Source: Arthrobacter sp. AZCC_0090 (GTDB lineage: Bacteria; Actinomycetota; Actinomycetes; Actinomycetales; Micrococcaceae). From it: DNA of 64,000 bases. The stretch covers positions 1 through 64,000 of the forward strand of contig NZ_JACHEE010000001.1 of NCBI RefSeq assembly GCF_014207375.1, written 5' to 3'. The notes beneath the pieces were generated by a model that worked only from the letters and a program-made list of their open reading frames with translations, had not been told where the DNA came from and searched no databases. Positions 18,181 through 45,354 of the stretch are shown in pieces (the first letter of the stretch is position 1; the number at the start of each line of letters is the position of its first letter). Made by a program: the position numbers and the translations under genes.

Positions 18181-18599
18181 CGGGCCCAGTCTGAGAGGCC
18201 GTGGGTGCGGGCACTGTCAGACAGGACGCTGTCTCAAACGGCACGGGTCGCGCAAGAGCAGGGCACCCTCGACGACGTTGGCGAAGCAACATACTTTTGG
18301 GTCCGGATCGACGGGCAAAGCCGAACGCTAATCTTGACGGTGACGGATCAATTATTCGCACAATCCTCCGCTAGCCACCCACCGGCGAGGCGTCCGCTCA
18401 GCTATGTCCTAATAGCTCTCCCGGAACCCTAGGGATACAAGACGAAGGGATTAGGCCAGGCCCTCGCTCCGTGGCAACGGCGGGGGCAGGGCTATGCCTG
18501 GGTATGGCGTCGCGCGTGGTGAGCGCTGCGGAGGCGGGGCTGCCGCTGTTCCCGGGCGACGGCTACGTCACTTCCCGGGGTACCGATACAGGTCGGGCT
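18181..18599. other. Stretch without a supported gene
   Basis: Continuation of the decayed segment. A plus-strand frame near 18499-18600 (RVVSAAEAGLPLFPGDGYVTSRG) hints at another broken coding sequence, but I cannot assign it. No promoter or RNA gene recognised. Confidence 0.3.
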
Positions 18600-19391
18600 T
18601 CAAGATTTAGAGCTAGGTCGACCTGGAATATGGCTAAGAATGGACTTAGAGAAGCCACCATCGACACAGATGTCTTGCCCGGTGACATAGCCCGATAGCG
18701 GGCCTACAAGAAATTCGATTACGTTCGCAATGTCCATGGGGTCTCCAATTCTTGACAACGGAATAATATCTTCCCTCGCTTTCTTAATTTGGGGATCGGC
18801 ATACATTTTTTCAGTCATCCGTGTATGAGTCATACCCGGGGATACCACATTTACACGAATTCCGTCAGGTGCCCATTCCAGTGCGAGTGTCTGGGCTAGC
18901 ATCGTCAATGCAGCCTTGCTGGGGCTGTAAGCGCCTGATCCGGCATGTGGTAGCTGGCCAGACATTGAAGAGGTAAAACAAGCGGAACCGCGGCTATGCC
19001 TCAAATGTGCGTAGCTTGCTTTGGCAAGAAGCCACGCGCCGCGGAGGTTAACGGAGAACATGCCGTCCCAGTCCTCAATGGATAGGTCGCATATTGGACC
19101 AGGGCTGGCGATTCCGGCATTCGCCACCAACGCGTCCAGCCCACCGAACTCGGCTACCGCAGCTCCTATAAGCTGACTCGGCACTTCGGGATCACCGAGG
19201 TCGCCCGCCAATGCGATGGCGGTACCTCCCATTGACTGGATTGAACGAACAACTTGTTCCTGGCTAGCGTTCGATTCGTGTCCACACACCGCAATCATCG
19301 GGTGCACGCCCCGAGCGAGAGCCGCCTCTGCGAGTCTCAGGCATGTAGCTGCGCCTATGCCGCTACTTCCGCCACTGACCAAAGCTCTCAT
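18600..19391 (-). CDS. Short-chain dehydrogenase/reductase
   Basis: 263 residues from the ATG at 19391, which lies about 10 bp after AAGGAG; a GTG at 19400 is possible. Cofactor motif SGGSSGIGAATCLRLA, NAGIASPG, catalytic YSPSKAA and the C-terminal GQDICVDGG are all present, as in FabG-like and sugar dehydrogenases. The DNA is visibly less GC-rich than its neighbours (for example GGAATAATATC, ATTTGGGGATC). Together with the isomerase next door it looks imported relative to the rest of the locus. Confidence 0.88.
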   Translation of the reverse strand: MRALVSGGSSGIGAATCLRLAEAALARGVHPMIAVCGHESNASQEQVVRSIQSMGGTAIALAGDLGDPEVPSQLIGAAVAEFGGLDALVANAGIASPGPICDLSIEDWDGMFSVNLRGAWLLAKASYAHLRHSRGSACFTSSMSGQLPHAGSGAYSPSKAALTMLAQTLALEWAPDGIRVNVVSPGMTHTRMTEKMYADPQIKKAREDIIPLSRIGDPMDIANVIEFLVGPLSGYVTGQDICVDGGFSKSILSHIPGRPSSKS

Positions 19392-19572
19392 CGCACACAC
19401 TCCTTTTGACAGGGATTCACTTGGGAATCATTTTTGGCTACCAAAATATGACAGAAAATCATGGACTGCAGTCCTCTCAGGTCTCGCTTTGCGTTTCAAT
19501 TCGCAAATGTAAACCCGATTCCATTATTTTCTCAAAACCATCGGCTGATGTGCCGCGATCTCCACGCTTGAG

Positions 19573-20385
19573 TCAATTTCCGAGTTCCCAGCCTTGATTT
19601 TTGAGATCCTGCATTGCCTTCTTGAATTCTTGCACGGGGTTCTCTTCGCGAATTATCTCAAGAACAACGTTATTGACTCCACAGGTTGTTTTGACGGCCT
19701 TGCCTAACCCGTCCCAGTCGATCACTCCGGTGCCGATTGGATCATGACCCCAGGTTTCCCTGCCCGTATCAGAAATATGTACAAGTCCAATTGATTCGTG
19801 ATTCTCAAGCAAACTTGCTACGGCATCCTCCCCTATGTAGGCAGCATTGGCGACATCGTACACGATCTTAAGTGAATCGTCGCTGACGGTATGTACGATG
19901 CCTGCCAGGTCCTGGATCGTAGGAGTGAAGCAATATGGAGTGTTTTCCATAAGTAGTCGTGTGCCAGCCTGTTTGGCCACCGGAATCAGAATCTCCAGGC
20001 TCTCGTACATCCACCCATAGGTTTTTTCGAGCGATGGTGAAATCATGGGGCGTCTTGTGCCGGTGGATATTACAACCTCGGGGACATCCCAGGCTACTGC
20101 CAAGTCAATCACCGACTTTATGTGCTCAATACTTTTGCGACGCATATTAGCGCCGGGGCTAGCCAAATTGATGTCATATCCACCGGCATTCAGCGACCTG
20201 ATTTTGGCGCCGTATTCATTGAGTCTTGCATAAATTGCCGAGCGCTCCGAGCCGGATATTTCATCCGGCCAGCAATGTGGAGAGCTAATCGGAACTTCAA
20301 AAGTCTCATATCCATTGTCGGCGAGTTCCGCAATCGCATCAATTGCCGTAGCTGACCAAAGATAGGAAAATGTATTAATAATCAT
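19573..20385 (-). CDS. Sugar phosphate isomerase/epimerase-like TIM-barrel protein
   Basis: 270 residues from the ATG at 20385, preceded by GAGGATG; an upstream start at 20475 is less likely. AP-endonuclease-2/IolE-like TIM-barrel pattern: NTFSYLWSATAIDAIAELAD, metal-site residues in LLMENTPY, IVYDVANAAY, VHISDTG and VVLEIIREENP. It would isomerise or epimerise a keto-sugar or inositol-type compound. Lower GC and less biased codon use than the flanking genes. Same strand as the SDR at 18600, separated by 181 bp. Confidence 0.85.
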   Translation of the reverse strand: MIINTFSYLWSATAIDAIAELADNGYETFEVPISSPHCWPDEISGSERSAIYARLNEYGAKIRSLNAGGYDINLASPGANMRRKSIEHIKSVIDLAVAWDVPEVVISTGTRRPMISPSLEKTYGWMYESLEILIPVAKQAGTRLLMENTPYCFTPTIQDLAGIVHTVSDDSLKIVYDVANAAYIGEDAVASLLENHESIGLVHISDTGRETWGHDPIGTGVIDWDGLGKAVKTTCGVNNVVLEIIREENPVQEFKKAMQDLKNQGWELGN

Positions 20386-20567
20386 ACAGAACATCCTCGC
20401 AATACTGCGCGTGTGGAGAAAACTTGTTTCATTCATAACGCAATGTGAATTTCGATCCTGCGTAAAGGATCGCACCGTTGGAGAGCCAGACGGCTCGAAG
20501 AGACCCGGGGCAGACGCGCCCCTTCTTGCCTATTCGAGCCGCCACGGCTTCCTACGGACAAGCGTGC

Positions 20568-21986
20568 CTACTGGGAACGTTTCGCCTCGTCGCTGGCCGA
20601 CGAAATGCTCAAGAGCAGGTGCTCGCCTTCGAGTACTTCGGGGTCGGCGGGAGCTACGGTGGCACGTCCTGCCCGGCTGCCGGTCTCGGGCAAGGTGAGG
20701 TAGACGATGAGGCAGAGGGCAACAACAACTGTCATGTAGATCGCGACATACATGGGATGTCCGGCGCCGACGAACGCGGCGGCGATCAACGGCGCGGTAC
20801 CGCCGAAGACGGCGATCACGATTTGGTGTGCGAAGCCGATGCCGGATACACGGACTGAGGCGGGGAACAGTTCTGCCTGGATGGTCGGGTAGACGGCTTG
20901 CCAGATACCGAGAACCACCCACCCGGACGCCGATACCAGAACGTAGACGCCGAAGCCCGGCTGGTTCAGCAGCAGGAGCATGGGGTAAAAGAGAACGATC
21001 ATGCCGATGGCACCGATGATTGGGAAGATTTTGCGTCGGCCGAGTCGATCAGAGAGCGCGCCGCAGATCGGCACGATGACAACGAGCAGGGCTAGCCCGA
21101 TAACGTTTCCGGCCAAGGTGGAGGCCAGGTCCCGGCCGGTGGTCAGTTTGGCGTAGGTGGGAAGGAAAGTGGCCCAGGTGTAGTAGGCCACTGCAGGGGC
21201 GGACAGTGCTGCTGCCTGCAGCAGCGCCTTCGGGTGTTCGCGAAGCAGGTCCATCAGGCGGGCCGCGGCGGACTTTTGATCGACGAGGGCAGTTGCCTCA
21301 AACTCGGGGGTCTCTTCTGCCCGGGCCCTCAAGACAATGCCGACGACGCCGAGGATGCCCCCCACGACGAACGGGATGCGCCAACCCCAGGCGGCGAGGT
21401 CCGCTGGAGTAAAGGATGATGTCACCATTGCCGCGGCGCCGGTCGCTGCGAGGGTCGCCAGGCCGCTTGCCATGTTGGTGAACGAACCGAACAGGCCCCT
21501 CCGGTTCGCGGGAGCGTGTTCCACCATGAATGCGATGGCGCTCTGCCCTTCACTACCGGCCGAGATTCCCTGGAGGATGCGCGCAACCAGAAAGAGAACG
21601 GGCGCTGCATAGCCGATGGTCGCAAATGAAGGTGTGAGGCCGATGATCAGAGCACCGAGTGCCATCCCGGAGATGGATAGAGTCAGGATGCGCCTTCGGC
21701 CGAATCGGTCGGCCAGCGGAGAGATGATGATTCCGCTGAGCGGGCGTACAACAAACCCGAGCGCGTAGGTGAGCAGTGCTGCGATCAGGGAGGCGAACGG
21801 GGAATCGCTTGGAAATATCTGTGATGAGAACACCGCTGCCAGCAGCCCGTAGACGTACCAGTCGTACCACTCCACGAAGTGGCCGATCGTGCCTGCCACC
21901 ATGTTGACGGTGCGGCGAGGATGCTCAGACACGTCGGCTAGCTCCGAAGGGTCTGGACTGCCGACGGCTTCTTTTGAGGTCTTCAT
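20568..21986 (-). CDS. MFS transporter, metabolite:proton symporter (MHS/ProP-like) family
   Basis: 472 residues from the ATG at 21986, which has GGAGAG 5 bp upstream; longer starts up to 22235 would run through the operator region. Twelve membrane segments; signature GTIGHFVEWYDWYVYG, the loop DRFGRRR between segments 2 and 3, and the second DRLGRRK. MHS members import carboxylates, sugar acids or betaines with protons. Three LacI-type operators lie about 200 bp upstream (22181-22235), linking it to the catabolic genes of this locus. Confidence 0.9.
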   Translation of the reverse strand: MKTSKEAVGSPDPSELADVSEHPRRTVNMVAGTIGHFVEWYDWYVYGLLAAVFSSQIFPSDSPFASLIAALLTYALGFVVRPLSGIIISPLADRFGRRRILTLSISGMALGALIIGLTPSFATIGYAAPVLFLVARILQGISAGSEGQSAIAFMVEHAPANRRGLFGSFTNMASGLATLAATGAAAMVTSSFTPADLAAWGWRIPFVVGGILGVVGIVLRARAEETPEFEATALVDQKSAAARLMDLLREHPKALLQAAALSAPAVAYYTWATFLPTYAKLTTGRDLASTLAGNVIGLALLVVIVPICGALSDRLGRRKIFPIIGAIGMIVLFYPMLLLLNQPGFGVYVLVSASGWVVLGIWQAVYPTIQAELFPASVRVSGIGFAHQIVIAVFGGTAPLIAAAFVGAGHPMYVAIYMTVVVALCLIVYLTLPETGSRAGRATVAPADPEVLEGEHLLLSISSASDEAKRSQ

Positions 21987-22180
21987 TGAACTCTCCATAT
22001 TTTCACGTTTGCTGCGGAGGGGGTATTGGAATATTCCCGGACACCCGAAACGGTGTGCGGGTTTTGCCCGGCTGTAACTCGGCTCGACGGGACAGCCGAC
22101 TGCCAAGGCCAAGTGCCGGCGCAACGCATAGGCGCTGCCTGACTTGAGGTGGCAGAGAAGCTGATCCAGCCTCTCTCCCG

Positions 22181-22235
22181 TGAGATCGATTGCAACAGAT
22201 TCATGAATGAGATCGGTTGCTGAGATCGGTTGCAA
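22181..22235. promoter_or_regulatory. Cluster of three LacI-type operators upstream of the MFS transporter
   Basis: TGAGATCGATTGCA (22181-22194), TGAGATCGGTTGCT (22208-22221) and TGAGATCGGTTGCA (22221-22234) fit the LacI-family consensus TGnAAnCGnTTnCA at nearly all fixed positions. The last two are in direct tandem. Matching sites occur in the divergent promoter at 23659-23686. Confidence 0.75.
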
Positions 22236-22365
22236 GCAACGATACGTAGGCTAGTCAGCTCTGTCAACGGTCATTTTCGATTCAGCGAATGGAGGTCCAA
22301 ACCTTTTGCCAGCAGGTAGCCAAAGGACAAGCGGAAACCGATCCACACGAGCCGGCCGTAAAGAG

Positions 22366-22914
22366 TCATCCCTGAACTGGCAGGGACTTCTCATTGTTGA
22401 GATCAAGGAAACGGACTCCGGACCAGGTGCAGTCCAAGCTGCCGTACGATGCCCAGTACTCGTCCCAATGCGCAAGCTTCCAGCGATCCCTCTCCAGACC
22501 CCGCTGAATGAGTCGCCCCCGGAGAGTATCCTGGGGGACCTGCACCCGTACCACCGTGGTCTCCGAGGGAGGCCAGTGGAATTCTTCCGCGGCGCGCGTC
22601 AGGTAGTCCGGTACGGCGAAGTACGCACCGAAGGGTGCATCGAGTACGACCGATCGTCCCAGTCGCAGATTCGCTCCGGCTATATCCATGAGCGTCTCGT
22701 ACTCCAAGGGCAGAACATTCTCCCGGTAAAACCCATTGGATTCCCGATCACTGGGGTCGTGTCCGGCTGCCTTCAAAGCAAACTCGACAAGGCGGCCACA
22801 GATCCGGTCCTTGTCCAGATATGCAGCTCCATGCTCTTTTGCTGTTTGCTGGGCAATGGTCGTCTTTCCGGACCCTGCAGGGCCGATGACAATGAAGACT
22901 TTGGGGACCGTCAT
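22366..22914 (-). CDS. Gluconokinase/shikimate-kinase-like P-loop carbohydrate kinase
   Basis: 182 residues. The P-loop GPAGSGKTT is at about 12-20, followed by YLDKDRICGRLVE and VVLDAPFG, the layout of GntK-like small kinases. It probably phosphorylates the sugar acid or keto-sugar made by the dehydrogenases of the locus; the exact substrate is unknown. Its ATG overlaps the stop of the aldolase gene (22911-22914), so the two are translationally coupled. Confidence 0.8.
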   Translation of the reverse strand: MTVPKVFIVIGPAGSGKTTIAQQTAKEHGAAYLDKDRICGRLVEFALKAAGHDPSDRESNGFYRENVLPLEYETLMDIAGANLRLGRSVVLDAPFGAYFAVPDYLTRAAEEFHWPPSETTVVRVQVPQDTLRGRLIQRGLERDRWKLAHWDEYWASYGSLDCTWSGVRFLDLNNEKSLPVQG

Positions 22915-23558
22915 CGGCGGGCCTCTGCCACTGCCGACAGGAACTCGCTGGCGGCCTCAGTGACACGGGAGAGGTCGCCGTCGGGCTGCCATGCTTTGGT
23001 CACGGCACTGCCGACGCCAACGCAGGCGACGCCGGCGGCGAACCATTCCGCGACATTCCCGGGGGTGACGCCGCCTGCCGGCATGACCGGCAGGTGCGCC
23101 AGCGGGGCGAGGACCGATTTCACGTAGGGGATGCCGCCGGCTTCCGTGGGGAAGAGCTTGAGGATGTCAGCGCCGGCTTCGGCAGACTCGACTAGTTCCG
23201 TCGGCGTGTAAGCGCCGCTGATTGTCGGTACCTGGTACCGGTTGGCCGTACGGATCATTGCCGGGTTGAGCTGGGGACTGACCAGGAAGTCAGCGCCGGC
23301 GCGGATGCACTCATAGGCTGAGTGCTCGTCCAGAACTGTTCCCGCTCCGACCGCTACTCCACTGGGCCCGTGCTTGGCAGAGAGTCGTCTGATTACGTTC
23401 ACTGCACCCGGGATCGAGAGCGTGATTTCGAGGGCCCGAAAACCTCCGGCGATCGCCGCTTCGGCGACGCGTTCTGCTAGGTCTTCGTTCCCAAGGCGCA
23501 CGATGAGGACGGCGCCGGACCGGTCGATTGTCTTGAGGGTGCGAAGTTTCTTGTACAT
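22911..23558 (-). CDS. eda: KDPG/KHG-type 2-dehydro-3-deoxy-phosphogluconate aldolase
   Basis: 215 residues from the ATG at 23558 (AGAAAGG upstream). Class I aldolase features: RLGNEDLAERVAEAAIAGGF, ALEITLSIPGA, VGAGTVLDE, the Schiff-base Lys in ILKLFPTE and the phosphate loop MPAGGVTPGN. It cleaves a 2-keto-3-deoxy-6-phospho-sugar acid to pyruvate and a triose phosphate. Coupled to a kinase, it completes a sugar-acid catabolic branch. The operator pair at 23659-23686 lies about 100 bp upstream. Confidence 0.92.
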   Translation of the reverse strand: MYKKLRTLKTIDRSGAVLIVRLGNEDLAERVAEAAIAGGFRALEITLSIPGAVNVIRRLSAKHGPSGVAVGAGTVLDEHSAYECIRAGADFLVSPQLNPAMIRTANRYQVPTISGAYTPTELVESAEAGADILKLFPTEAGGIPYVKSVLAPLAHLPVMPAGGVTPGNVAEWFAAGVACVGVGSAVTKAWQPDGDLSRVTEAASEFLSAVAEARR

Positions 23559-23658
23559 TGCTGGCCTTTCTTCTGACCAAGGCAGGTCCTTATTCCGGAG
23601 CATCCCTGGGCCGCTCTTGAAGTGTCGTTGACAAACTCTCCCACCATCCATAGTGTTA

Positions 23659-23686
23659 TTGCAACCGATCTCAGCAATCGATCTCA
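23659..23686. promoter_or_regulatory. Tandem LacI-type operators in the divergent promoter
   Basis: On the plus strand TGCAACCGATCTCA (23660-23673) and AGCAATCGATCTCA (23673-23686) are the reverse complements of the sites at 22181-22235. They lie between the aldolase/kinase operon (minus) and the dehydrogenase/LacI/VOC/isomerase operon (plus), so one regulator can control both. I infer that it is the LacI protein encoded at 24679. Confidence 0.75.
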
Positions 23687-23708
23687 TACTTAGCAAAGGG
23701 GCTGGCAG

Positions 23709-24692
23709 ATGAGTGGACCACGCACGATCATCCTTGGTGCTTCGCACTGGCACATCCCGCTCTGCGCGCGGGCGATCGGCGAAGAACACCAGGTCGTCGG
23801 CATCAGTGACGAGGACGCATCGCTCGTCCGGGGTCTTGCGGAAGCGTGGAACGCTCCCGTGGAGGCTGACTGGCGGAACTTGGTGGATCTGCCGGATCTC
23901 GGGCTTGCCTATGTCTTCGGCCCGCACAGTGGCATGGCGGAAAAATGTCTTGCGCTGATCGAGCGCGGCATTCCGTTCGTGGTAGAGAAGCCTCTCGGAA
24001 CCTCCCTTGCGGAACTTTCCGGGGTGCGGAAGGCCGCGGAAGCGGCCGGTGTGCCAGCGACAGTCCCGTTGGTTCAGCGGGGCGGCCCCACCGACCGTTG
24101 GCTGGCCAAGGCTGGTCGTCCGACATACCAGAGAATCTCCTTCGTCGCCGGGCCGCCCTCGCGCTACCTGGATAACGGCAATCCTTGGATGCTGGACCCC
24201 GCTGCTGCAGGTGGTGGTTGCTTGGCGAATCTGGCACCGCATTTTGTCGATCTTTTCCTGCAGAGCTGTAACGAGTCAGCGGAGAACGTAGGTTCCCGGC
24301 TCTCTTCCGTTCTGCACGGTGCGGGTGTTGAGGACCATGCCAGCCTCATTATTACCACCCCGAGCGGACGTGAAGCCATCATCGAGGTGGGTTACGCATT
24401 CCCGGGTTCGCGGTTGAAGCGCTACTGCAGCTTCACGTCGGCGGGCGAGGCCGGATTCGCATCTGTCGACTCAGACGGTTCTGCCACGTTCACCACGCTG
24501 GACGGGGCGACGGAGTCCGCCGTGATCGACGTCGACAGTGACCCTCTCTATGATCTGTTCGTACGCCGTGTCGCGAAGACACTGGAAGACGGATTCCGAG
24601 GGCTGCCAACACTGGCCCAGCTTGAAGATGCGATGCGCCCGATTTGGCAGGCATATGACGACCACGAAGGAAGAGAAGATGGCAGACCTTAG
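23709..24692 (+). CDS. Gfo/Idh/MocA-family NAD(P)-dependent oxidoreductase
   Basis: 327 residues with an N-terminal Rossmann fold (TIILGASHWHIPLCARAIGE; the usual GxGxxG is altered) and the family motif VVEKPLG near residues 91-97. The C-terminal alpha/beta domain includes GGGCLANLAPHFVDLF. The family oxidises sugars, inositols or sugar acids. First gene of the plus-strand operon: overlapping or zero-gap junctions follow through five genes to 28138. Confidence 0.88.
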   Translation: MSGPRTIILGASHWHIPLCARAIGEEHQVVGISDEDASLVRGLAEAWNAPVEADWRNLVDLPDLGLAYVFGPHSGMAEKCLALIERGIPFVVEKPLGTSLAELSGVRKAAEAAGVPATVPLVQRGGPTDRWLAKAGRPTYQRISFVAGPPSRYLDNGNPWMLDPAAAGGGCLANLAPHFVDLFLQSCNESAENVGSRLSSVLHGAGVEDHASLIITTPSGREAIIEVGYAFPGSRLKRYCSFTSAGEAGFASVDSDGSATFTTLDGATESAVIDVDSDPLYDLFVRRVAKTLEDGFRGLPTLAQLEDAMRPIWQAYDDHEGREDGRP

Positions 24693-25674
24693 TATTGACG
24701 TTGTCGCGAAGGCGGCCGGTGTCCACCGCTCTACGGTTTCCCGGGCATTCTCCCGGCCGGAAGCGGTAAAAAGCGAAACCCGGGAGCACATTCTCCGCAT
24801 CGCCGAGGGGCTCGGCTACACGATGAGCCCGCTCGCCCAGGCGTTGCGTCGAAAGACCAGCACCTTCGTCCCTCTGATCGTGCCTGACATCACCAACCCG
24901 TTCTTTGCGGAACTTGCCAAGACCATGACGCAGGCCGCTGATGAGCGCGGCTACCAGCTGCTGCTGTGTGTCACGAACGGAGACCCTGCCAAGACCGAGG
25001 GGTACTTCACCGCGATGCAGGCCATGTACGCGCCCTTCGGAATCGTCGCACCCTCGACGAAAGTCGATACCGACGCCCTCAAGCGCTTCGATTTTGGCCA
25101 CCGGGTGGTGGTGATCGACCGCGTGGACGGCGACTCCTCGGTTCCAACCGTCACCGTTGACAGCCGCCGCGGAATAGTCCTGGCCCTAGAGCACCTGCGT
25201 TCCCTGGGGCACACCTCGATCGGCTACGTTTCCGGTATCTCCGGGACCCACACTGCGCAGGACCGGATGGACGCGTATCTGGAGCTGTCAGCGGAAGGCA
25301 GCAGCACGCCGCTTGTACTCGACAGCGGCTCCGATCCGGACGCAGGGGCACGCGCGGCAAAGCACTTTCTTGAGATGGAGAATCCCCCGACGGCGATTAT
25401 CGCCGCCAATGACATGGTCGCCTTCGCGGTGATCTCGGCCCTTGGCCAAAGCGGTATCCGCGTGCCGGAGGACGTATCGGTCATGGGCTTTGACGGCTTG
25501 GCATTGGGCGCCCGGTTCAACCCGCCTCTGACCACAGTGCGGCAGCCGATTGCTGACATGGGAAACATCGCGATTGAGCTGGCAGAGAAGCAGAACCTGA
25601 ACGGATCGGTAGACCACGTCGTTCTGGAACCTGAACTTCTGGTGCGCGCCTCCACCTCAGGGCCGCGCAAATGA
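24679..25674 (+). CDS. LacI-family transcriptional regulator of the catabolic locus
   Basis: 331 residues from the ATG at 24679 (AAGGAAGAGAAG upstream), overlapping the dehydrogenase end by 14 bp. The helix-turn-helix IDVVAKAAGVHRSTVSRAFS and hinge LAQALRRKTS are followed by a periplasmic-binding-like core ending VSVMGFDGLALGARFNPPLT and TVRQPIADMG. It sits inside the operon that carries its presumed operators, so it is likely an autoregulating repressor released by a pathway sugar or sugar acid. Confidence 0.92.
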   Translation: MADLSIDVVAKAAGVHRSTVSRAFSRPEAVKSETREHILRIAEGLGYTMSPLAQALRRKTSTFVPLIVPDITNPFFAELAKTMTQAADERGYQLLLCVTNGDPAKTEGYFTAMQAMYAPFGIVAPSTKVDTDALKRFDFGHRVVVIDRVDGDSSVPTVTVDSRRGIVLALEHLRSLGHTSIGYVSGISGTHTAQDRMDAYLELSAEGSSTPLVLDSGSDPDAGARAAKHFLEMENPPTAIIAANDMVAFAVISALGQSGIRVPEDVSVMGFDGLALGARFNPPLTTVRQPIADMGNIAIELAEKQNLNGSVDHVVLEPELLVRASTSGPRK

Positions 25675-26240
25675 CCGGAGCCAACGCCAGGACGCTGCGA
25701 CGGCTGCCCGGGCTGCGGCACACCGACCACGTCGGCCTGACGGTTCCGAACCTCGAGGACGCAATCAGGTTCTTCGTCGAGGTACTCGGTGCCGAGGAGT
25801 TGTACCGCTCCGACCGCGGACCCGACCCCGAGTTCATGCCCACGAACTTCGATGTCCCTGCTGATGCCCGGCTCACCCTCGCCATGCTGCGACTGCCTCC
25901 GAACCTGAACATCGAGCTTTTCGAATGGAGCAGCGCAGAACGGCGGGAAACCCCGCCACGGCATTGCGACGCAGGCGGCCACCACCTGTGCTTCGTTGTG
26001 GACGACGTGGACGAAGCGGTCGCCGTGCTGCAGGAAACCCCGGGAGTACGCGTGCTCGGGGAGCGCAAGGAAGTCGCCGGCGACAGTCCTCGCGTGGCGG
26101 GCAACCGCTGGACTTACTTCATCACCCCCTGGGGGCTGCTGATGGAGATCGTCGACCGATCCCGCGTCGCAGCCCCACCACGGCTGGTCGGTCCCGCGGA
26201 CTGGGCAGCAACTCAAGACACTTTCAGGAAGGACGCTTAA
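25671..26240 (+). CDS. VOC-superfamily (glyoxalase/dioxygenase-like) protein
   Basis: 189 residues. The ATG overlaps the LacI stop by 4 bp. Two beta-alpha-beta-beta-beta modules are visible: LRHTDHVGLTVPNLEDAIRF with first metal ligand His, NIELFEW with Glu, and GGHHLCFVVDDVDEAV through GLLMEIVD. Metal-dependent lyase, isomerase or dioxygenase chemistry is possible; the substrate is unknown. Position inside the sugar operon suggests action on a pathway intermediate, perhaps a dicarbonyl. Confidence 0.85.
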   Translation: MTGANARTLRRLPGLRHTDHVGLTVPNLEDAIRFFVEVLGAEELYRSDRGPDPEFMPTNFDVPADARLTLAMLRLPPNLNIELFEWSSAERRETPPRHCDAGGHHLCFVVDDVDEAVAVLQETPGVRVLGERKEVAGDSPRVAGNRWTYFITPWGLLMEIVDRSRVAAPPRLVGPADWAATQDTFRKDA

Positions 26241-27143
26241 ATGCGACTGGCAGGCCACACTCTAGGCACTCCGAACCATACGGTCCCCCAGGCAATCAGG
26301 CTTTTTCGAGCCGCAGGTCTCGATGCCGCAGAAGTCATTTACCAGGATGGCTACACTTCGGGTCTCCCTCAGGGGGACAGGCGCGCCGCCATGGAGGCAT
26401 TGAGGGCGGCGGAAGATGAGGGCCTGCCCATCATTGGACTTACGCCCTACACCACGGCAATCAACGCTCTGGAGGAGAGTGAATGGCGCGGCGGAGTAGA
26501 CGAATTCCGCGGCGCGATTGAGACCGCGCATCTGCTCGGGGCCGACCGGGTGCGCGTGTACGCGGGATCCTGGCATCCGGGGGACGCCGATCACGCCGGG
26601 CGATGGGCGAGACTGCGGGAGGCCCTGCAGACCCTGGCGCCTGAGGCTGGACAGGCCGGGGTGCGTCTGTGCGTGGAGAACCATTTCGGCACCATGACCC
26701 AGACTGCGGCCGAAACCGCGGCGCTCGTTCGGGAGGTTGCGCACCCGGCTGTTCGTGTTCTCTACGACCAGGCCAACCTGACCTTCACCCACGACGAGAC
26801 ATTCGAACAGGCCTTTGATGTTCAAGGCGAGCTGATCGGTCACGTACACGTCAAGGATCTCGTGTTCGCCGATCCCTCGGCGGCCTTCCGCGCAACGGAA
26901 ACGGCCCGCGTCAACGCGTCCGAGCGTTCCGTCCGGTCAAGAGTTATCGGGAGCGGTGTGCTTCCCTGGCCTGAGATTCTCGCTGCGCTGCTGCGCCACG
27001 GCTACGATGATCTGCTGAGCATCGAGTATGAGTACCGCTGGCACCCGCAAGATCTCCCGAGCCCGGAGGACGGGTTTCGGGAATCAGCGGCCGCCCTGCG
27101 CGGAATGCTTTCTGATCTGGCTGAAGTGCAGGAGGCACGATGA
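26241..27143 (+). CDS. Sugar phosphate isomerase/epimerase-like TIM-barrel protein
   Basis: 300 residues, beginning the base after the VOC stop; ribosome site GGAAGGACG is within the previous gene's end. AP-endonuclease-2 fold with metal-site motifs LCVENHFGTM, VLYDQANLTF, GHVHVKDL and LSIEYEYRW. Second isomerase of the locus; it and the one at 19573 may act on different epimers. It is followed by an overlapping Gfo/Idh/MocA gene (ATGA at 27140), a pairing often seen in inositol and rare-sugar pathways. Confidence 0.87.
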   Translation: MRLAGHTLGTPNHTVPQAIRLFRAAGLDAAEVIYQDGYTSGLPQGDRRAAMEALRAAEDEGLPIIGLTPYTTAINALEESEWRGGVDEFRGAIETAHLLGADRVRVYAGSWHPGDADHAGRWARLREALQTLAPEAGQAGVRLCVENHFGTMTQTAAETAALVREVAHPAVRVLYDQANLTFTHDETFEQAFDVQGELIGHVHVKDLVFADPSAAFRATETARVNASERSVRSRVIGSGVLPWPEILAALLRHGYDDLLSIEYEYRWHPQDLPSPEDGFRESAAALRGMLSDLAEVQEAR

Positions 27144-28138
27144 ACGCCCAGCGTCTGCGCGTCGGCGTCATCGGCGCGGGAAATATTGCCTCCATTGCCC
27201 AATTGCCCACACTCGTACAGCGCGACGATGTTGACTTGGCTGCCTTGGTGTCACGGCGGAAGGATCCGGGAAACCTGGTCCGGCGCTGGGGTTTCGGTGC
27301 CGCATACCGGTCAGTGGAGGACATGCTGGCCTCCCAGGACCTGGACGCCGTCTTCGTCCTCACTCCACGGTCCGAGCACGCGCACGCCGTCCAGCTGTGC
27401 CTAGACAATGACGTCGACGTGTTTTGCGAAAAGCCCCTGGCTCCGGCCACCGAGGAGGCAGGACGTTTGGCGGACCTCGCCGACGAGCGCAGCCGCATCC
27501 TGATGGTCGACTTCAACCGCCGCTACGCACCTGTGTACGTGGCAGGGCGCGAGGCATTTGGTGAGAAGGGCGCTACCTTCTGCGTCGCCCAAAAGAACCG
27601 CCCCGGTTCGGAATACCGCGCGACGTTCGAGAACGCCATTCACATGGTTGATCTGCTCCGCTGGTACTGCGGCGGCGAACCCGTGGACGTGGCCGCGCAT
27701 GCAGCCGGCGATGACCCTTGGGAAGAAGACGGCGTCGCAGCCATCATCCGCTTCAGTACCGGCAACACCGGAGTGCTGATGGCAGCTCGAACCGCAGGTG
27801 CCTGGAACGAAAAACTGGACGCCTACGGCGACGGAAAGACCGTGGAGGTACGTGCACCCGAAACAGTATCGACCACTGTCAGCGGCGTCACCACATCACG
27901 CGAGCTCAGCGCCGAGGCCTACGGTTGGGCCACAGCGACCGACACACTCGGATTCTCCGCCGCCGTCCACCATTTCCTGGACCGCGTCGCCGACAGGGCG
28001 CAGCCCCTCACCTCGGGTCGCGAGGCCGTCCACACCCAGCGGCTGCTCGACCGGGTTCTCGCAGCCTCCGGGCTGCCCACAGAAGAACAAGACGGCCGCC
28101 AATGGGCAAGCCACGCCACGAGCGGCCAAGGCCGCTGA
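27140..28138 (+). CDS. Gfo/Idh/MocA-family oxidoreductase
   Basis: 332 residues, ribosome site GCAGGAGGCACG. The Rossmann motif VGVIGAGNIASIAQ lies at 8-21, followed by FCEKPLAPA (the catalytic-region EKP) and YRATFENAIHMVDLLRWYCG. Second dehydrogenase of the locus and last in the unbroken coupled series begun at 23709. Likely oxidises a cyclic or keto sugar with NAD. Confidence 0.9.
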   Translation: MNAQRLRVGVIGAGNIASIAQLPTLVQRDDVDLAALVSRRKDPGNLVRRWGFGAAYRSVEDMLASQDLDAVFVLTPRSEHAHAVQLCLDNDVDVFCEKPLAPATEEAGRLADLADERSRILMVDFNRRYAPVYVAGREAFGEKGATFCVAQKNRPGSEYRATFENAIHMVDLLRWYCGGEPVDVAAHAAGDDPWEEDGVAAIIRFSTGNTGVLMAARTAGAWNEKLDAYGDGKTVEVRAPETVSTTVSGVTTSRELSAEAYGWATATDTLGFSAAVHHFLDRVADRAQPLTSGREAVHTQRLLDRVLAASGLPTEEQDGRQWASHATSGQGR

Positions 28139-28243
28139 GCAGCAAAAGGCAACAGGTTGAGCATCCACGTGGTTGGCTTTGCCGCAAAGTAGTGGCCCAC
28201 GAAGCAGTCAAGACCGAAACCACCGGACACGTCAGAAAACACA

Positions 28244-28255
28244 CCTTACGTAAGG
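28244..28255. promoter_or_regulatory. Perfect palindrome CCTTACGTAAGG covering a ribosome site
   Basis: A 12-bp perfect palindrome whose right half supplies the AAGGAT ribosome site of the small open frame at 28260. It could be an operator, or hide the ribosome site in a stem. Confidence 0.4.
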
Positions 28256-28259
28256 ATCA

Positions 28260-28340
28260 ATGAAGATGAATCGAGTAGCTGTCACACTGACCGCAGGGGA
28301 GAAGCGGGTCAGCCGCGCCATGAACGGCAGGACCAAATGA
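28260..28340 (+). CDS. 26-residue open frame translationally coupled to the next SDR
   Basis: Starts at ATG 28260 (second ATG 28266), reads MKMNRVAVTLTAGEKRVSRA and ends TGA at 28338-28340, overlapping the SDR start as ATGA. It is preceded by AAGGAT inside a perfect palindrome. The SDR has no good ribosome site of its own, so translation of this leader would control it. It could be a leader peptide or the surviving end of a deleted gene. Confidence 0.4.
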   Translation: MKMNRVAVTLTAGEKRVSRAMNGRTK

Positions 28341-29086
28341 GCCTCAAAGACCACGTTGTCCTGGTAACCGGATCAAGCGGCGGGATCGGTGACGCAGTTA
28401 TCGACGCACTCACAGCCGCGGGCGCCCGCATCATAGGCGCCGACCGCGCCCCCAAGGCAGGCCAGGCACTGGCGGACTTCTTCCCGCTCGACGTTACCTC
28501 CGAAGAGCAATGCTCCGGCGTCGTCCGCGACATCACGGCGAAGTACGGGCGCATCGATGTGCTCATTCATGCAGCGGGAGTACTAGGCACCACCCCGGAA
28601 ATAATGGAGACAACGACGGAAGAGTTTGAATCCATCATGCGGATCAACTCCTCCGGAACATTCTCGATGGTACGAGAGACGGCGCAGTCGATGCTTGGGT
28701 CCGGTACTGCAGGCGCGATCGTGATCCTCTCGTCCGTGGCAGCAAAAGAAGCGCGCCGCAACTACCTGCCCTATAACGCCAGCAAGCTTGCCGTGCTTCA
28801 CATCATGTGGTCATTCGCTGAGTTGCTCGGTCCCAACGGCATCTCCGTCAACGCCATCGCACCAGGCCCGGTGAACACTCCCATGTGGGCGCAATTCGCA
28901 AAGGACTCCGGTCCGGACGCCGCCGCCAACCGGGCCAAGCGGGCAGCCCAACTGCCGATGCGCCGATTCGCCGAGCCAAATGAAGTCGCCCGCGCCATCC
29001 TTTTTCTGGCGGATCCGGACAACCGATACATTACTGGCGTAACTCTCGATGTCGCAGGCGGAGCTCACCTTGGCATGGGAACCTGA
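28337..29086 (+). CDS. Short-chain dehydrogenase/reductase
   Basis: 249 residues. TGSSGGIGDAVIDAL cofactor loop at 11-25, catalytic YNASKLA near 152, C-terminal VTLDVAGGAHLG. The start overlaps the stop of a 26-residue frame. It is on the same strand, 198 bp after the Gfo/Idh/MocA gene, and is likely part of the same catabolic locus. The substrate is unknown. Confidence 0.9.
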   Translation: MSLKDHVVLVTGSSGGIGDAVIDALTAAGARIIGADRAPKAGQALADFFPLDVTSEEQCSGVVRDITAKYGRIDVLIHAAGVLGTTPEIMETTTEEFESIMRINSSGTFSMVRETAQSMLGSGTAGAIVILSSVAAKEARRNYLPYNASKLAVLHIMWSFAELLGPNGISVNAIAPGPVNTPMWAQFAKDSGPDAAANRAKRAAQLPMRRFAEPNEVARAILFLADPDNRYITGVTLDVAGGAHLGMGT

Positions 29087-29340: not shown

Positions 29341-30146
29341 GTGAGTCCTGCAACGCGACCCATGATTCCCGAGCAGAGGCACCGGGAAATCCTCCGCCTC
29401 CTGCGGCGGGAGGGCGTCCTGAGTATCCGCGGTCTCACGGACTACATGAAGGTATCCCACATGACGGTTCGCCGGGACATCACTGCCCTGGAGGACCACG
29501 GCCACGTGACCTCGGTCCACGGTGGTGTGCGGCTCGCGGATTTGAACAGCCAGGAGCCGAAGCTGGAACCGGAATTCCGGGCGCGCCCGGAGCCTCCGCG
29601 CAAACATTTCATTGCCGAACTTGCCGCCCAGTCGGTGGAGGATGGGATGGTGGTGTACCTCGACGCCGGCACCGCTTGCCAGTCGGTGGTGCCGTACCTG
29701 GCCGGCCGCCAGCACCTCACCGTGGTGACCAACGACTTCTATGTGGTGACCAGCCTGTTTGCCTATCCGCACATCGAAACCATCCACACCGGCGGAGCTG
29801 TGGACGCCTCCAGCGCCTCGGTCGCATTGCGGTGGATGCAGTCAAGTCCATCAATATTGACCTGCTCTTTCTCAGTACCGGCGCTTGGAACATGTCCAGG
29901 GGTGTCACTGCGCCGTCCACGGACCAGGTCGAGGTAAAACGGGCAGCCCTTAAAGCGTCGTCATCGTGCTTCCTGCTGGCGGACAGCATCAAGTTCGGCA
30001 CAGTATCCCGTTTCAACGTTGCGCCTTTGGAAAGGCTGGATGCTGTCGTTACTGACGATCAACTACCTCCGGACAAGCGAGACAACATCCGGGAACTTGG
30101 CGTTAGCGTCCGCGTGGCTAGTCTCAGGAAAGCTGCTCTACCTTAG
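29341..30146 (+). pseudogene. DeoR-family regulator with one frameshift
   Basis: A GTG at 29341 follows AAGGAGACGTC. The first frame carries the DeoR helix-turn-helix (RHREILRLLRREGVLSIRGL, VSHMTVRRDI) and effector domain start (VVYLDAGTACQSVVPYLAG) to SSASV near 29825. The rest (VDAVKSINIDLLFLSTGAWN to ELGVSVRVASLRKAALP) is in another frame, so one base is lost at about 29822. Joined length, about 268 residues, is normal. Either the gene is inactivated or the base call is wrong. Its target could be the preceding sugar locus. Confidence 0.8.
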
Positions 30147-31932: not shown

Positions 31933-33471
31933 TTAGGACAAGGCTGTGACGGCTAGTTTCCGCACAATGGCCGTGCCGCCTTCTACGCTCACGTCGGTGC
32001 GCAGGTTCCCGGACAGCGGAAACACGAGATCCGTCAGGACGACCCTGCCGTCTTGGGCGAAGACCTCCACGGAGCACTGGTCGACGATTAGCCTTAGCCT
32101 TAGCACGCCGCCGTCGAGCTTCACGGGTGCCGACTCAGCCGATGCGAACTTGTCGTGGAAGGAGGTGTTTCCGGAGTTGCGGCGATCCAGGGTGAGCCGG
32201 CTCGTGATGGCGTCGAAGCTGAGAACCGTTGCGGCGCTCCCGCTCGATGCGCCGAGAAGCCTGAAGGCAACGGTCCGTGCCGTGCCGGGCAGGATTTCGG
32301 CGTCGATCAGTTGGGCTGATCCGGGCACCGCGTCGGGCAGTCTCACCAGTGAGTTGTGAATTTCCATGTTCTGGATGGTGCGGGTCGGCTCCCCACAGTC
32401 CAACGGCAGCGCCGGGCGCTGGATCAGGCGCACCAAACCCTCCACCGTCGCGAGCTCGACCTCGCGGGCAAGGGACATCGCGGAGCGCCACGGAGACGTG
32501 GGCAAGGAGTTGGCATAGTCCCAGTTGTTCATCCAGCCCATCATGATGCGGCGGTTCTCCGGGGCATTGCTGAAGGAGACGGCGGCGTAGTAGTCGCGTC
32601 CCCAGTCGAGCCAGAGACAGATTCTGAGATCCGTGGTCCCATCGGCATCCGCTGGAACCAGTGAATCAAAGTCGGCGGTGAACTGCACCCCATCGAAGTC
32701 CCCGACGAAGTACTGCCCTCCCGAGCCGCCGGCAACGGCACCCGGGTTGATATTTACCACCATGACCCACTTGACGTTGTCCGGGTCTCCGTCGACCGGG
32801 AGCGGGAACAGGTCGGGGCATTCCCATTCGCCTCCTGTGGCGTTTGCAGGGCCGAAGGTGCTCAGGTATTCCCAGTCTTTGAGGTTGGCCGAGCGGTACA
32901 GCACAACCTGCTGATGCTGTGCCTCCACCGCCACCATAACCCAGCAGGAACCGGCCGGTCCCTCATGGCGGAACACCTTGGGATCCCGAAAATGGGCCGA
33001 GCCGCGACCAAGCACCGGGTTGCCTGCGTATTTGCTCCACGTCATGCCGGCGTCCGTGGAGAACGCGAGAGACTGCGCTTGTGTCCCTTGGTGCGCCGAG
33101 CCTTCCTTGAAGGCGCTCGTGTAGATGGCCACCAAAGCCGGATTTTCCATTGTGCCAAATCCCGATGTATTGCCGTCGTCCACCACGATGCTGCCTGAAA
33201 AGACGTCTTCTTCCTCGTCGCAGGCGATGGCAACCGGGTGTTCGGTCCAGTGCAAAAGGTCGGTTGAGGTGGCATGTCCCCAGGACATGTTGCCCCAGAC
33301 GTTGTCGAAGGGGTTGTTTTGATAGAAGAGGTGGTAGACGCCCTGGTGCCACACGAGTCCGTTGGGATCGTTCAGCCACGTGTTCTTGGCTGTGTAGTGA
33401 AGTATCGGCCGGATGCTGGGGGCGTTATCTTCGGCGGGGCCCCCGGCAAAGTGCGTTGTCGTTTTAGTCAT
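31933..33471 (-). CDS. Glycoside hydrolase family 32 (sucrose/levan/inulin hydrolase)
   Basis: 512 residues. All three acidic GH32 sites are seen: nucleophile Asp35 in WLNDPNG, Asp163 in FRDPKVF, and the acid/base Glu217 in WECPDLF. A C-terminal beta-sandwich follows from about residue 360. No signal peptide, so it acts inside the cell on imported sucrose or fructo-oligosaccharides, releasing fructose. The start overlaps the stop of a truncated fructokinase gene by 8 bp, the normal operon arrangement for fructan use. Confidence 0.93.
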   Translation of the reverse strand: MTKTTTHFAGGPAEDNAPSIRPILHYTAKNTWLNDPNGLVWHQGVYHLFYQNNPFDNVWGNMSWGHATSTDLLHWTEHPVAIACDEEEDVFSGSIVVDDGNTSGFGTMENPALVAIYTSAFKEGSAHQGTQAQSLAFSTDAGMTWSKYAGNPVLGRGSAHFRDPKVFRHEGPAGSCWVMVAVEAQHQQVVLYRSANLKDWEYLSTFGPANATGGEWECPDLFPLPVDGDPDNVKWVMVVNINPGAVAGGSGGQYFVGDFDGVQFTADFDSLVPADADGTTDLRICLWLDWGRDYYAAVSFSNAPENRRIMMGWMNNWDYANSLPTSPWRSAMSLAREVELATVEGLVRLIQRPALPLDCGEPTRTIQNMEIHNSLVRLPDAVPGSAQLIDAEILPGTARTVAFRLLGASSGSAATVLSFDAITSRLTLDRRNSGNTSFHDKFASAESAPVKLDGGVLRLRLIVDQCSVEVFAQDGRVVLTDLVFPLSGNLRTDVSVEGGTAIVRKLAVTALS

Positions 33472-42009: not shown

Positions 42010-42046
42010 TTTGCACTTCTATGCTTGCGTTTGCGGCATTTGCAGG
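42010..42046. promoter_or_regulatory. TTTGC direct repeats in the DeoR/ABC divergent region
   Basis: TTTGCAC (42010), TTTGCGG (42030) and TTTGCAGG (42039) lie 60-100 bp before the binding-protein start. Near the regulator side, AAGTGCAGC, GAACTGCAG and AAGTGTTGCAC repeat around 41894-41924. DeoR/GlpR regulators often bind such repeats. Confidence 0.4.
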
Positions 42047-42109
42047 ACTAATGTGTCCTATATCACGCAGCGAATGCGCATGATTAAGCAATTACACGAA
42101 GGAGTGGAC

Positions 42110-43399
42110 ATGAGCACGAGGAGAGGCCGCCGCCCGCGGCTGCTCGCAGCGTTAGGCGTAACCGCCGTTGCTGCGCTCACAATGTCAGGTTGCAGTGGCT
42201 CGTCCTCCGGTGGTGCCAGTGCCACCGGCGATGTCACCCTCGAGTTCGCCCAGTGGTGGGAGCCAGAGCTCCCGCAGGGATCCCTGGCCAACCTGATTGA
42301 CCAATTCCAGAAGGCGAACCCACACATCAAGGTGAAGCTCCTCAGCTCACCCTTTTCCTCAGACCAACAGCAGATGGTTGCTGACGCAGCCTCCGGACAG
42401 CTACCCGACGTCCTCGGCCTCGACGGTGCCTGGGTGAGCGATTTCGCCAAGCAGGGCGCGATCGCCGACCTCTCTCCGCTTCTGAAAGCTGACAATTTCT
42501 CTGAAGACCAGCTGGCAAGCGAGGTCAAGGTCAATGGCAAGGCCTACATGATCCCTGCGGTCAATTTCGTCTACCCCTTGTTCGTGAACAACGACCTGCT
42601 CAAGCAGGCCGGCGTAAACAAGGCGCCGACCACCCGCACCGAGTTCCTCGACGCAGCCAAGAAGATCAGCGCCCTCGGCGGCAACGTCAAGGGTTGGGCC
42701 CTGCCACTCGACACCGCAGTCCCCAACGGCATCCAGAACGACGTCATGTCCTGGGTTTGGGCATCTGGTGGCAGCATGCTCAAGGACGGGGAACCTGACG
42801 TCACCAACGCCCAGGTCAAGAGCGGAGTCGACTACGTCAAGAGCCTCTACGACGCGAACGTTCTAGTCCCCGGCGCCCTGACCATGAAGGAACAGGACAA
42901 GGTCGAGAAGTTCACCAACGGCCAGGTCGGCATGGTGATCGACTCGCTCGCCCACATCAACCTCATCAAGAAGAACAACCCCAGCCTCAACTTCACGGTG
43001 GCAGCGCTGCCTTCCGAGGATGGCTACACCGGCAAGCGTGGCATCCCGTACGCATCGTGGGGTGTTGGCATCTCGAACAAGTCCGAGCACAAGGCGGAAG
43101 CGGCCAAGCTCGTTGAGTTCCTCATGAGCAAGGACACGAACGCTCAGCTGAGCAACCTTGCAAACGGCTTCCCGGGCAACAAGACGGCGACGCCCGACTT
43201 CAGCAAGAGCGATCCGCTGTTCAAGACGGCCTTCGACATCTACCAAGCCGGTTACCCGGCGAATGAGTTCACCGGCCTGCCGAACGCCGACCAGCTGCAG
43301 CGCACGTTCGACGAGCAACTGCAGCGGACCCTCACCGGAAGCCAGAGCGTCGATCAGACACTCAGCACCGTTCAATCCGCATGGAAATCCATCTTCTGA
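42110..43399 (+). CDS. ABC transporter sugar-binding lipoprotein
   Basis: 429 residues from ATG 42110 (GAAGGAG upstream). A twin-Arg-like basic start, hydrophobic segment and lipobox LTMSGC give a lipid-anchored extracellular protein. The family-1 solute-binding fold is clear: TLEFAQWWEPEL, DVLGLDGAWVSDFAKQG, VNGKAYMIPAVNFVYPLFVN, and ASWGVGISNKSEHKAEAAKL near the end. It captures the sugar for the two permeases that follow. No ATPase is in the operon, so a shared MsmK-type ATPase is likely. Confidence 0.93.
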   Translation: MSTRRGRRPRLLAALGVTAVAALTMSGCSGSSSGGASATGDVTLEFAQWWEPELPQGSLANLIDQFQKANPHIKVKLLSSPFSSDQQQMVADAASGQLPDVLGLDGAWVSDFAKQGAIADLSPLLKADNFSEDQLASEVKVNGKAYMIPAVNFVYPLFVNNDLLKQAGVNKAPTTRTEFLDAAKKISALGGNVKGWALPLDTAVPNGIQNDVMSWVWASGGSMLKDGEPDVTNAQVKSGVDYVKSLYDANVLVPGALTMKEQDKVEKFTNGQVGMVIDSLAHINLIKKNNPSLNFTVAALPSEDGYTGKRGIPYASWGVGISNKSEHKAEAAKLVEFLMSKDTNAQLSNLANGFPGNKTATPDFSKSDPLFKTAFDIYQAGYPANEFTGLPNADQLQRTFDEQLQRTLTGSQSVDQTLSTVQSAWKSIF

Positions 43400-43464
43400 C
43401 GTCGAAGATTCGACGGGGTCGTGCCGTCCAGCTTGCGGCACGACCCCACAAGGGAGTTTGAGAC

Positions 43465-44418
43465 ATGAATCTGTCTTCTACCAACGTCGAGGGACCCGGA
43501 AGGGTACGGCACGCCGTCGGCCCGCGGTCGACGAAGCGGGGCGCCTCCGGGGTGCGCGTCCACAAGCTCGTCCCGTTCGCCTTCGTCTCGCCGACCCTGG
43601 CCTTGATCACCTTGCTCACCGTGGTGCCGATCCTGATGGTTGCCGGCTACTCATTCATGGACAACGTGATCGTCGAACCGAACCCCGTGTTCGTTGGGTT
43701 CGCCAACTATGTGAAGGTGCTCACTGATCCTGCTTTCCTTGCGGCGCTCGGCAACACCTTCCTGTTCATCACGTTCAGCACGGTCGTGCACTTGGTACTG
43801 GGTCTCGTCTTTGCCTTGCTGCTCAACACAACGCTGCTCGGCAACGTCACCAAGGCAATTTTCCGGGTGGTCTACATCCTCCCGTGGTTGTTCACCATCG
43901 CGGTGATCGCCGTCGTCTGGCGTCTCATGCTCGACCCCTCTGGTGTGGTGAACTACGTTCTCGGCACGCTTGGAGTCCAGGGCGCGAACTGGCTGTCCAC
44001 ACCCGAAACGGCATTGGGCTCCGTGACCTTCATCAACATCTGGTCCGGGTACCCGTTCTTCATGATCAGCCTCCTGGCTGCCCTCCAAGGCGTGCCAACC
44101 GTGCTACACGAGGCTGCACGCGTCGACGGGGCGGGCTGGTGGCAACGGTTCCGGTACGTGACACTGCCCCATATCCGCCCGGTGATTATCAGCATGGCCG
44201 TGCTCGACCTCATCTGGACGTCACAGCAGTTCGCCTTGATCTGGATGACCACGGGCGGGGGCCCACTCAACGCCACGGAGGTGCTCAGCACCTACACATA
44301 CAAGCAGGCCTTCAGCAACTTCGATTTCTCGGCGGCCTCCGCGGCTGCGGTCGTCGTGCTGCTGCTCACTATGGTCCTTGCCTTCTTCTACGTACGGCAG
44401 CAAAGGGTGCGTGATTGA
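43465..44418 (+). CDS. ABC sugar permease, MalF/UgpA type
   Basis: 317 residues, AAGGGAG before the ATG. Six membrane segments, the first FAFVSPTLALITLLTVVPIL. The EAA loop reads EAARVDGAGWWQRFRYVTLP, the contact for the ATPase. It overlaps no gene but leaves only one base before the next permease start, showing tight coupling. Confidence 0.93.
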   Translation: MNLSSTNVEGPGRVRHAVGPRSTKRGASGVRVHKLVPFAFVSPTLALITLLTVVPILMVAGYSFMDNVIVEPNPVFVGFANYVKVLTDPAFLAALGNTFLFITFSTVVHLVLGLVFALLLNTTLLGNVTKAIFRVVYILPWLFTIAVIAVVWRLMLDPSGVVNYVLGTLGVQGANWLSTPETALGSVTFINIWSGYPFFMISLLAALQGVPTVLHEAARVDGAGWWQRFRYVTLPHIRPVIISMAVLDLIWTSQQFALIWMTTGGGPLNATEVLSTYTYKQAFSNFDFSAASAAAVVVLLLTMVLAFFYVRQQRVRD

Positions 44419-44419
44419 G

Positions 44420-45313: not shown

Positions 45314-45354
45314 CGTCTCGAAACACCTTTAACCAACACAAGGAGATATACACC

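Follow-up and report, generated by a model that had tools for sequence, protein, structure and literature searches.

A putative LacI-controlled catabolic cluster of Arthrobacter sp. AZCC_0090 with a P-loop kinase and an Eda-family aldolase as its proposed last steps

The stretch analysed here, hereafter the window, comprises positions 1 to 64,000 of contig NZ_JACHEE010000001.1 of Arthrobacter sp. AZCC_0090 (assembly GCF_014207375.1), and its positions 18600-29086 hold a gene cluster for which an original prediction, made from the letters alone, had listed ten genes and proposed a catabolic pathway for a sugar acid or cyclitol. All ten were confirmed as open frames of the stated families by their Pfam and NCBIfam profile scores (Table 1), but the list proved incomplete, having left out a LacI-family regulator gene inside the cluster. 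The frames of GFO1 and the LacI gene overlap by 14 bases, a value that reflects the choice of the LacI start, and 4-base overlaps join LacI to VOC, AP2 to GFO2, and ALD to KIN, while VOC and AP2 directly abut. The absence of a clear dehydratase from the cluster was borne out as well, in that no known sugar-acid dehydratase family was found among the matches listed for the cluster proteins (the best 25 matches for the two short-chain dehydrogenases, SDRs), the rest of the genome not being searched. The 'GntK-like' label given to the kinase had little to sustain it, because the match of TIGR01313 to KIN scored 23.7 bits (cut-off 113.75) and spanned just residues 7-38; at so low a score, a gluconate pathway through GntK was set aside.

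Table 1. Genes and putative operators of the cluster at positions 18600-29086 of the window (KDPG, 2-keto-3-deoxy-6-phosphogluconate)
Feature	Position	Strand	Evidence and occurrence
SDR1, short-chain dehydrogenase	18600..19391	-	PF13561 185.6 bits; in 21/33 relative loci
AP1, AP_endonuc_2 TIM-barrel protein, epimerase/isomerase-like	19573..20385	-	PF01261 124 bits (cut-off 31.1); in 22/33 loci
MHS-type MFS importer	20568..21998	-	TIGR00883 338.6 bits, under cut-off 443.45; in 30/33 loci, some cut by contig ends
Three putative LacI-type operators upstream of MHS	22181..22234 (sites at 22181, 22208, 22221)	none	perfect TGAGATCGRTTGCW
KIN, AAA_33 P-loop kinase, proposed 2-keto-3-deoxy sugar acid kinase	22366..22914	-	PF13671 61 bits (cut-off 27)
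ALD, KDPG-type aldolase	22911..23558	-	PF01081 131.9 bits (cut-off 27.8), TIGR01182 157.2 bits (cut-off 156.05)
Two tandem putative LacI-type operators between ALD and GFO1	23660..23686 (sites at 23660, 23673)	none	perfect TGAGATCGRTTGCW
GFO1, Gfo/Idh/MocA protein, GASHWH replacing the usual glycine motif	23709..24692	+	PF22725 51.5 bits, PF01408 39 bits
LacI-family regulator	24679..25674	+	RbsR/CytR-type models 167-174 bits, under cut-off; start picked by eye
VOC metalloprotein	25671..26240	+	PF13669 53.6 bits
AP2, AP_endonuc_2 TIM-barrel protein, proposed keto-directed dehydratase/isomerase	26241..27143	+	PF01261 146.9 bits (cut-off 31.1)
GFO2, Gfo/Idh/MocA dehydrogenase	27140..28138	+	PF01408 82.4 bits
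SDR2, short-chain dehydrogenase, proposed ketone reductase	28337..29086	+	PF13561 182.9 bits

The 14-bp pseudo-palindrome TGAGATCGRTTGCW, which has a central CG as is typical of LacI operators, occurs in tandem copies 13 bp apart in the ALD-GFO1 intergenic region, so that, as for a local regulator, such an operator lies near the LacI regulator's own genes. By a pattern search of the 4.9-Mb genome, five perfect copies were found, every one inside the cluster; when one mismatch was allowed, 15 genome sites were obtained for the operator pattern versus 2 for a reversed control pattern. The ALD-GFO1 intergenic block was nearly invariant over 32 aligned rows (the window and 31 relatives), and perfect operator copies were present in 32 of the 33 relative loci described below, with Paractinoplanes L057 as the single miss. 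In relatives, perfect operators also precede the gene of a CUT1 binding protein (e.g. L037, 19932-19988) and GFO3 (L040, 13959-13985). Judged from its sequence, the cluster behaves as a single catabolic regulon, probably under LacI control, and the earlier claim of one catabolic gene set is thereby backed by a common private operator together with a conserved gene set.

Conservation was evaluated by a scan with VOC, which yielded 36 relative loci (L numbers); 33 of them, from 30 genomes (P2b, GA104 and ISL-85 with two loci each), were kept, and the Sphingomonadales loci L060-L062, with a VOC of 39-41% identity and no other cluster gene, were dropped from the counts. Under hand-set presence thresholds, KIN, ALD, GFO1, LacI, VOC, AP2 and GFO2 were each found in 33 of 33 loci, a count that for VOC holds by construction as the loci were picked by it. 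SDR2 was full length in 28 loci, fragmentary in four and located at a contig end in one. The MHS, AP1 and SDR1 genes occurred less regularly (Table 1), as did GFO3 (18 loci) and the CUT1 binding protein (17 loci), some absences being due to contig ends. The core also resides on plasmids of Herbiconiux (L063) and Rhodococcus (L079). The distribution of the cluster is sporadic: VOC at an identity of at least 76% was detected in 4 of 149 genomes of the family sample and a VOC match at E ≤ 1e-40 in 2 of 394 genomes of the class sample, the window's own being counted in both, and the other class-sample match (L080, VOC at 49% identity) lacked further core genes. An AP2 match at E ≤ 1e-40 was obtained in 1 of 296 genomes, i.e. 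the window genome only.

Evidence on the lower end of the pathway came from the distribution of KIN, for which samples of the family (149 genomes), the order (396) and the phylum (296) were searched at differing E limits, giving a match in 12 genomes, the window's own counted. Five of these carry the core (the window genome G000, G063, G084, G143 and G932). Four others (L082, L096, L097 and L099) have ALD, an MFS gene and KIN consecutively with a DeoR gene nearby and no core in the stretch read, a context of KDPG aldolase and acid transporter only that befits a 2-keto-3-deoxy sugar acid kinase, with low identities in L099 (KIN 34%, ALD 39%). In the two modules whose MFS protein was typed (L082 and L097), this protein is nearest to the galactonate-type model TIGR00893 (297.6 and 298.8 bits, under the cut-off of 395). 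For 2-keto-3-deoxygluconate (KDG) or a stereoisomer, uptake, phosphorylation and cleavage by a KDPG-type aldolase would be enough; a dehydratase may still be encoded elsewhere in these genomes. Because the stand-alone modules pair KIN with only ALD and an anion transporter, the likeliest substrate of KIN is a 2-keto-3-deoxy sugar acid. P-loop families were the sole matches of KIN, which does not show the PfkB fold of KdgK, and a PHROGs search returned weak P-loop matches and nothing else. ALD passes both curated aldolase cut-offs and belongs to the KDPG/KHG aldolase (Eda) family, being one of four PF01081 genes in the window genome; Glu43, Thr73 and Lys133 were retained in 11 of 11 aligned sequences, and KDPG aldolases work through a Schiff-base lysine. 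KDG catabolism by KdgT, KdgK and KdgA resembles the stand-alone modules in its anion transporter, kinase and KDPG aldolase, but employs a PfkB kinase where a P-loop AAA_33 kinase stands here. As for the predicted end in a 2-keto-3-deoxy-6-phosphate, likely cleavage by the aldolase is upheld by the four genomes in which KIN, a transporter and ALD form modules without the core, and the original prediction is supported in part.

For the upper part, the best NCBIfam models were IolE for AP2 (44.9 bits, cut-off 290) and IolG for GFO2 (91.4 bits, cut-off 355). The predicted model of AP2 (pLDDT 86.9) ranked D-allulose/L-ribulose 3-epimerases, Art22 and 2-hydroxy-3-keto-glucal hydratase alike at the top, with TM-scores of 0.64-0.84. 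An elimination on AP2, in the sense of the original suggestion that VOC or an isomerase may supply the dehydration, is plausible because its TIM-barrel family includes inosose dehydratase and glycal hydratase; the family assignment is clear, and the neighbours of the modelled structure do not single out a reaction. In VOC, H20, E82, H104 and E159, which we take to be a glyoxalase-I-like ligand set, were conserved in 14 of 14 sequences, and its predicted model, of lower confidence (pLDDT 75.9), resembles glyoxalase-type proteins; within the VOC family, the protein seems to be of the glyoxalase/epimerase type. For neither AP2 nor VOC did the fold searches, which returned family-level neighbours, give a hint of the substrate. 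Four residues before a conserved His, where Asp is usual, GFO2 has Glu in 10 of 10 sequences. Among the compared loci, only L033, L034, L035 and L038 have an AroE-like gene (TIGR00507 125.5 bits, cut-off 200.2) behind GFO2, and in these SDR2 is reduced to an N-terminal piece of ∼50 residues, with the C-terminal part of a KIN relative behind it in L033 and L034. AroE-family enzymes have as substrates cyclohexane acids that bear a ring ketone, and the replacement of SDR2 by an AroE-like gene is no more than a hint at a carbocyclic ketone in the pathway.

SDR1 and AP1, together with MHS, look like an added feeder branch because of the lower GC content of SDR1 and AP1 and the lack of these two genes in about a third of the loci. 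In 1-kb windows, GC amounted to 52.5-57.5% at 18-21 kb (SDR1 and AP1) versus about 62-65% at 23-28 kb, and the lower value at 18600-20400 suggests a later arrival of the two genes. The best NCBIfam models of AP1 reached 38-42 bits, all far under cut-off, and its 41.3 bits against IolO (cut-off 300) do not make it an IolO-type epimerase of the 5-keto-L-gluconate pathway. The window genome holds 29 AP_endonuc_2 (PF01261) genes, in our impression an unusually rich set.

Taken together, we consider it somewhat more probable than an even chance that the cluster is a catabolic regulon under LacI control and serves a small polyhydroxy compound taken up from outside, be it a sugar acid, a keto sugar or a cyclitol, whose breakdown ends via KIN and ALD. 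Gene content, private operator, conserved core, interchangeable importers and KIN-ALD modules without the core can be read directly from the sequence, and from these we infer every reaction. In general terms, Gfo/Idh dehydrogenases would place ketone groups on the substrate; AP2, possibly with VOC, would dehydrate or isomerize beside a ketone and so stand in for a conventional dehydratase; a ketone that remains would be reduced by an SDR, which would yield a 2-keto-3-deoxy sugar acid; and KIN would phosphorylate this acid for cleavage by ALD into pyruvate and a triose phosphate.

A cyclitol scheme can be written that uses each core gene once, and we regard it in full as rather improbable. GFO2 would oxidize an inositol-like ring to a ketone (inosose), AP2 would remove water to leave a 1,2-dione with a CH2 group, GFO1 (or GFO3 in relatives) would add a second ketone in 1,3 relation, and VOC would hydrolyse the 1,3-diketone and so open the ring to 2,5-diketo-3-deoxyhexonate, of which SDR2 would reduce C5 to yield 2-keto-3-deoxyhexonate for KIN and then ALD to finish. 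KduD performs a comparable C5 reduction in pectin breakdown. Similarly doubtful in our estimation is that a dehydratase-free route from a cyclitol to 2-keto-3-deoxyhexonate exists here, with kinases of a new family distinct from PfkB acting on the 2-keto-3-deoxy sugar acid at its end.

Several observations weigh against the proposed regulon function and its steps. Three of the 12 KIN genomes (L083-L085; KIN identity 39-41%) have no ALD and were scored as misses, from which it appears that the KIN fold has other uses. In ALD, the Thr in the PTGG motif of the compared PDB chain, presumably a designed relative of a KDPG aldolase, is Ala in 10 of 11 sequences and Ser in L082; this position bears on C4 stereochemistry, and the Ala-for-Thr change would leave the configuration of the sugar acid unfixed. 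The IolE and IolG matches are weak, and the ligand set of VOC suggests proton transfer at least as much as ring hydrolysis. GFO1 is possibly atypical or even no dehydrogenase, since the usual glycine motif is missing and Asn takes the place of the usual Asp four residues ahead of a conserved His in 11 of 11 sequences, though EKP is kept. Finally, SDR2 was not found in the 36 kb read at L098 (L098 and L100).

Neither a characterized cluster of the same composition nor a P-loop KDG kinase was found in searches of open-licence papers. Myo-inositol catabolism (Iol) likewise uses a Gfo/Idh dehydrogenase followed by an AP_endonuc_2 dehydratase, the same family pair as here, but IolB, IolC and IolD are not in this cluster, the IolE and IolG scores stay far under their cut-offs, and a KDPG-type aldolase ends the set. 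An Iol-type locus lies elsewhere in the genome, on contig 4, with IolB (277.4 bits, over the cut-off of 205; the genome's single KduI/IolB-family match), a methylmalonate-semialdehyde-dehydrogenase-like protein (717 bits, cut-off 448.5) and IolG-like proteins under the IolG cut-offs, and the ordinary inositol pathway was set aside on that account.

The L-glucose and L-galactose pathways of Paracoccus 43P and Luteolibacter LG18 share with the cluster the oxidations, an epimerase or reductase, a 2-keto-3-deoxy acid kinase and an aldolase (PMC12632266), and differ by having a dehydratase, none being recognized in this cluster, which adds VOC and AP2. The Luteolibacter L-glucose pathway, which has a dehydratase and an IolO-like 4-epimerase (PMC12632266), shows the closest end-to-end logic we have seen, and it lends weight to an aldonate or 5-keto-hexonate route, in which a rare hexose or hexonate would be oxidized to a 5-keto acid, epimerized by AP1, reduced by SDR1 and dehydrated by an enzyme encoded elsewhere before KIN and ALD act. 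This route, which is also in line with the weak IolO match of AP1 and with the acids often carried by MHS proteins, is in our view unlikely, as a dehydratase was seen neither in the cluster nor among the genes recurring beside it (a genome-wide search was not made), 11 of 33 loci lack AP1, in some cases because a contig ends there, and VOC and AP2 would be left without a role.

The levoglucosan pathway (LgdA, LgdB1, LgdB2/B3 and LgdC) is alike in its two Gfo/Idh proteins, its AP_endonuc_2 proteins and the CUT1 ATP-binding cassette (ABC) system found in many relatives, and levoglucosan catabolism is described as using the Gfo/Idh and AP_endonuc_2 families (PMC7676230; PMC10066097). A 3-keto-glycoside or anhydrosugar route along these lines, with Gfo/Idh proteins oxidizing C3 of a glycoside, AP2 eliminating or hydrating, sugar being released and KIN and ALD handling the acid part, gains from the resemblance of the AP2 model to 2-hydroxy-3-keto-glucal hydratase, among others, from the CUT1 transporters in 17 of 33 loci and from locus L046, which belongs to the levoglucosan-grown strain LG01. 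It would, however, give a free sugar instead of a 2-keto-3-deoxy acid, and no glycosidase belongs to the regulon. GFO1 and GFO2 reach 25 and 39.5 bits, respectively, against the levoglucosan dehydrogenase cut-off of 650, the curated LgdA model (NF052479) thus being missed, and the cluster adds a kinase, an aldolase, VOC and SDRs; the levoglucosan pathway as considered for L046 was set aside on these scores, although that locus may be among those induced in LG01, and the broader glycoside route is quite unlikely. A chance proximity of two pathways, KIN-ALD and the oxidoreductase core, that have nothing to do with each other would accommodate the four genomes with KIN-ALD modules but no core and also Cellulomonas L058, where KIN-ALD sits at the opposite end of the cluster, but it hardly fits the joint presence of KIN-ALD and the core in 33 of 33 loci and in both plasmid clusters or the same operators in the region ahead of ALD, and we hold it to be very improbable.

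The regulon reading takes in a variety of importers. Arthrobacter-type loci and Rhodococcus have MHS, often plus a CUT1 ABC system; in Cellulomonas, Paractinoplanes and Herbiconiux, CUT1 is present and MHS absent. L098, from the same order, retains KIN, ALD, GFO1, LacI, VOC, AP2 and GFO2 and encodes at 6-16 kb a sulfonate-type ABC importer, an F420-type LLM oxidoreductase and a second GFO2-like gene. Many sugar-binding proteins, none of them close, turned up as relatives of the CUT1 binding protein, and the window genome has no close relative of it either (best 30%). No glycosidase was recognized in the regulon or, by eye over the first 70 residues, in the 75 open reading frame groups common to at least four loci. 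The substrate is probably small and imported intact, with acids and neutral polyols both as candidates.

Downstream of the cluster, a GH32 gene (31933-33471, 2.8 kb beyond SDR2) has homologs in 3 of 33 fetched stretches (L050 65%, L040 59% and L036 29%). It is not part of the conserved set, nor is a perfect operator close by, and it was therefore taken as a mere neighbour, although the cluster may have a link to fructans. In L050, the gene adjoining GH32 gave no Pfam match, and we assume a resemblance to inulin fructotransferase. A DeoR-family gene at 29341-30125, just downstream of the cluster, is split over two reading frames, i.e. it is either a frameshifted gene or an assembly error; it shares 68% identity with the DeoR gene that accompanies KIN and ALD in the stand-alone module of L082. 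Further along the window, a CUT1 ABC transporter, a DeoR-family gene and an aldolase-like gene (labelled by eye) at 42011-46218 apparently form a second sugar locus. On the Herbiconiux plasmid (L063), a second catabolic set at 18525-27495 adjoins the core and comprises a gluconokinase, an SMP-30 lactonase, a cellulase-like protein, an ABC transporter and a mandelate-racemase-type enzyme; the Rhodococcus plasmid (L079) has two MHS copies ∼26 kb apart beside the cluster.

The locus is compact, comes with an operator of its own and is found repeatedly in cultivated strains from soil. If the tail of the proposed pathway is right, a P-loop kinase performs a step usually credited to PfkB-type kinases, and pathway tools based on KdgK would miss KIN. 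Should the proposed upper steps hold, the work of the usual sugar-acid dehydratase is done by a keto-directed elimination on a TIM-barrel enzyme.

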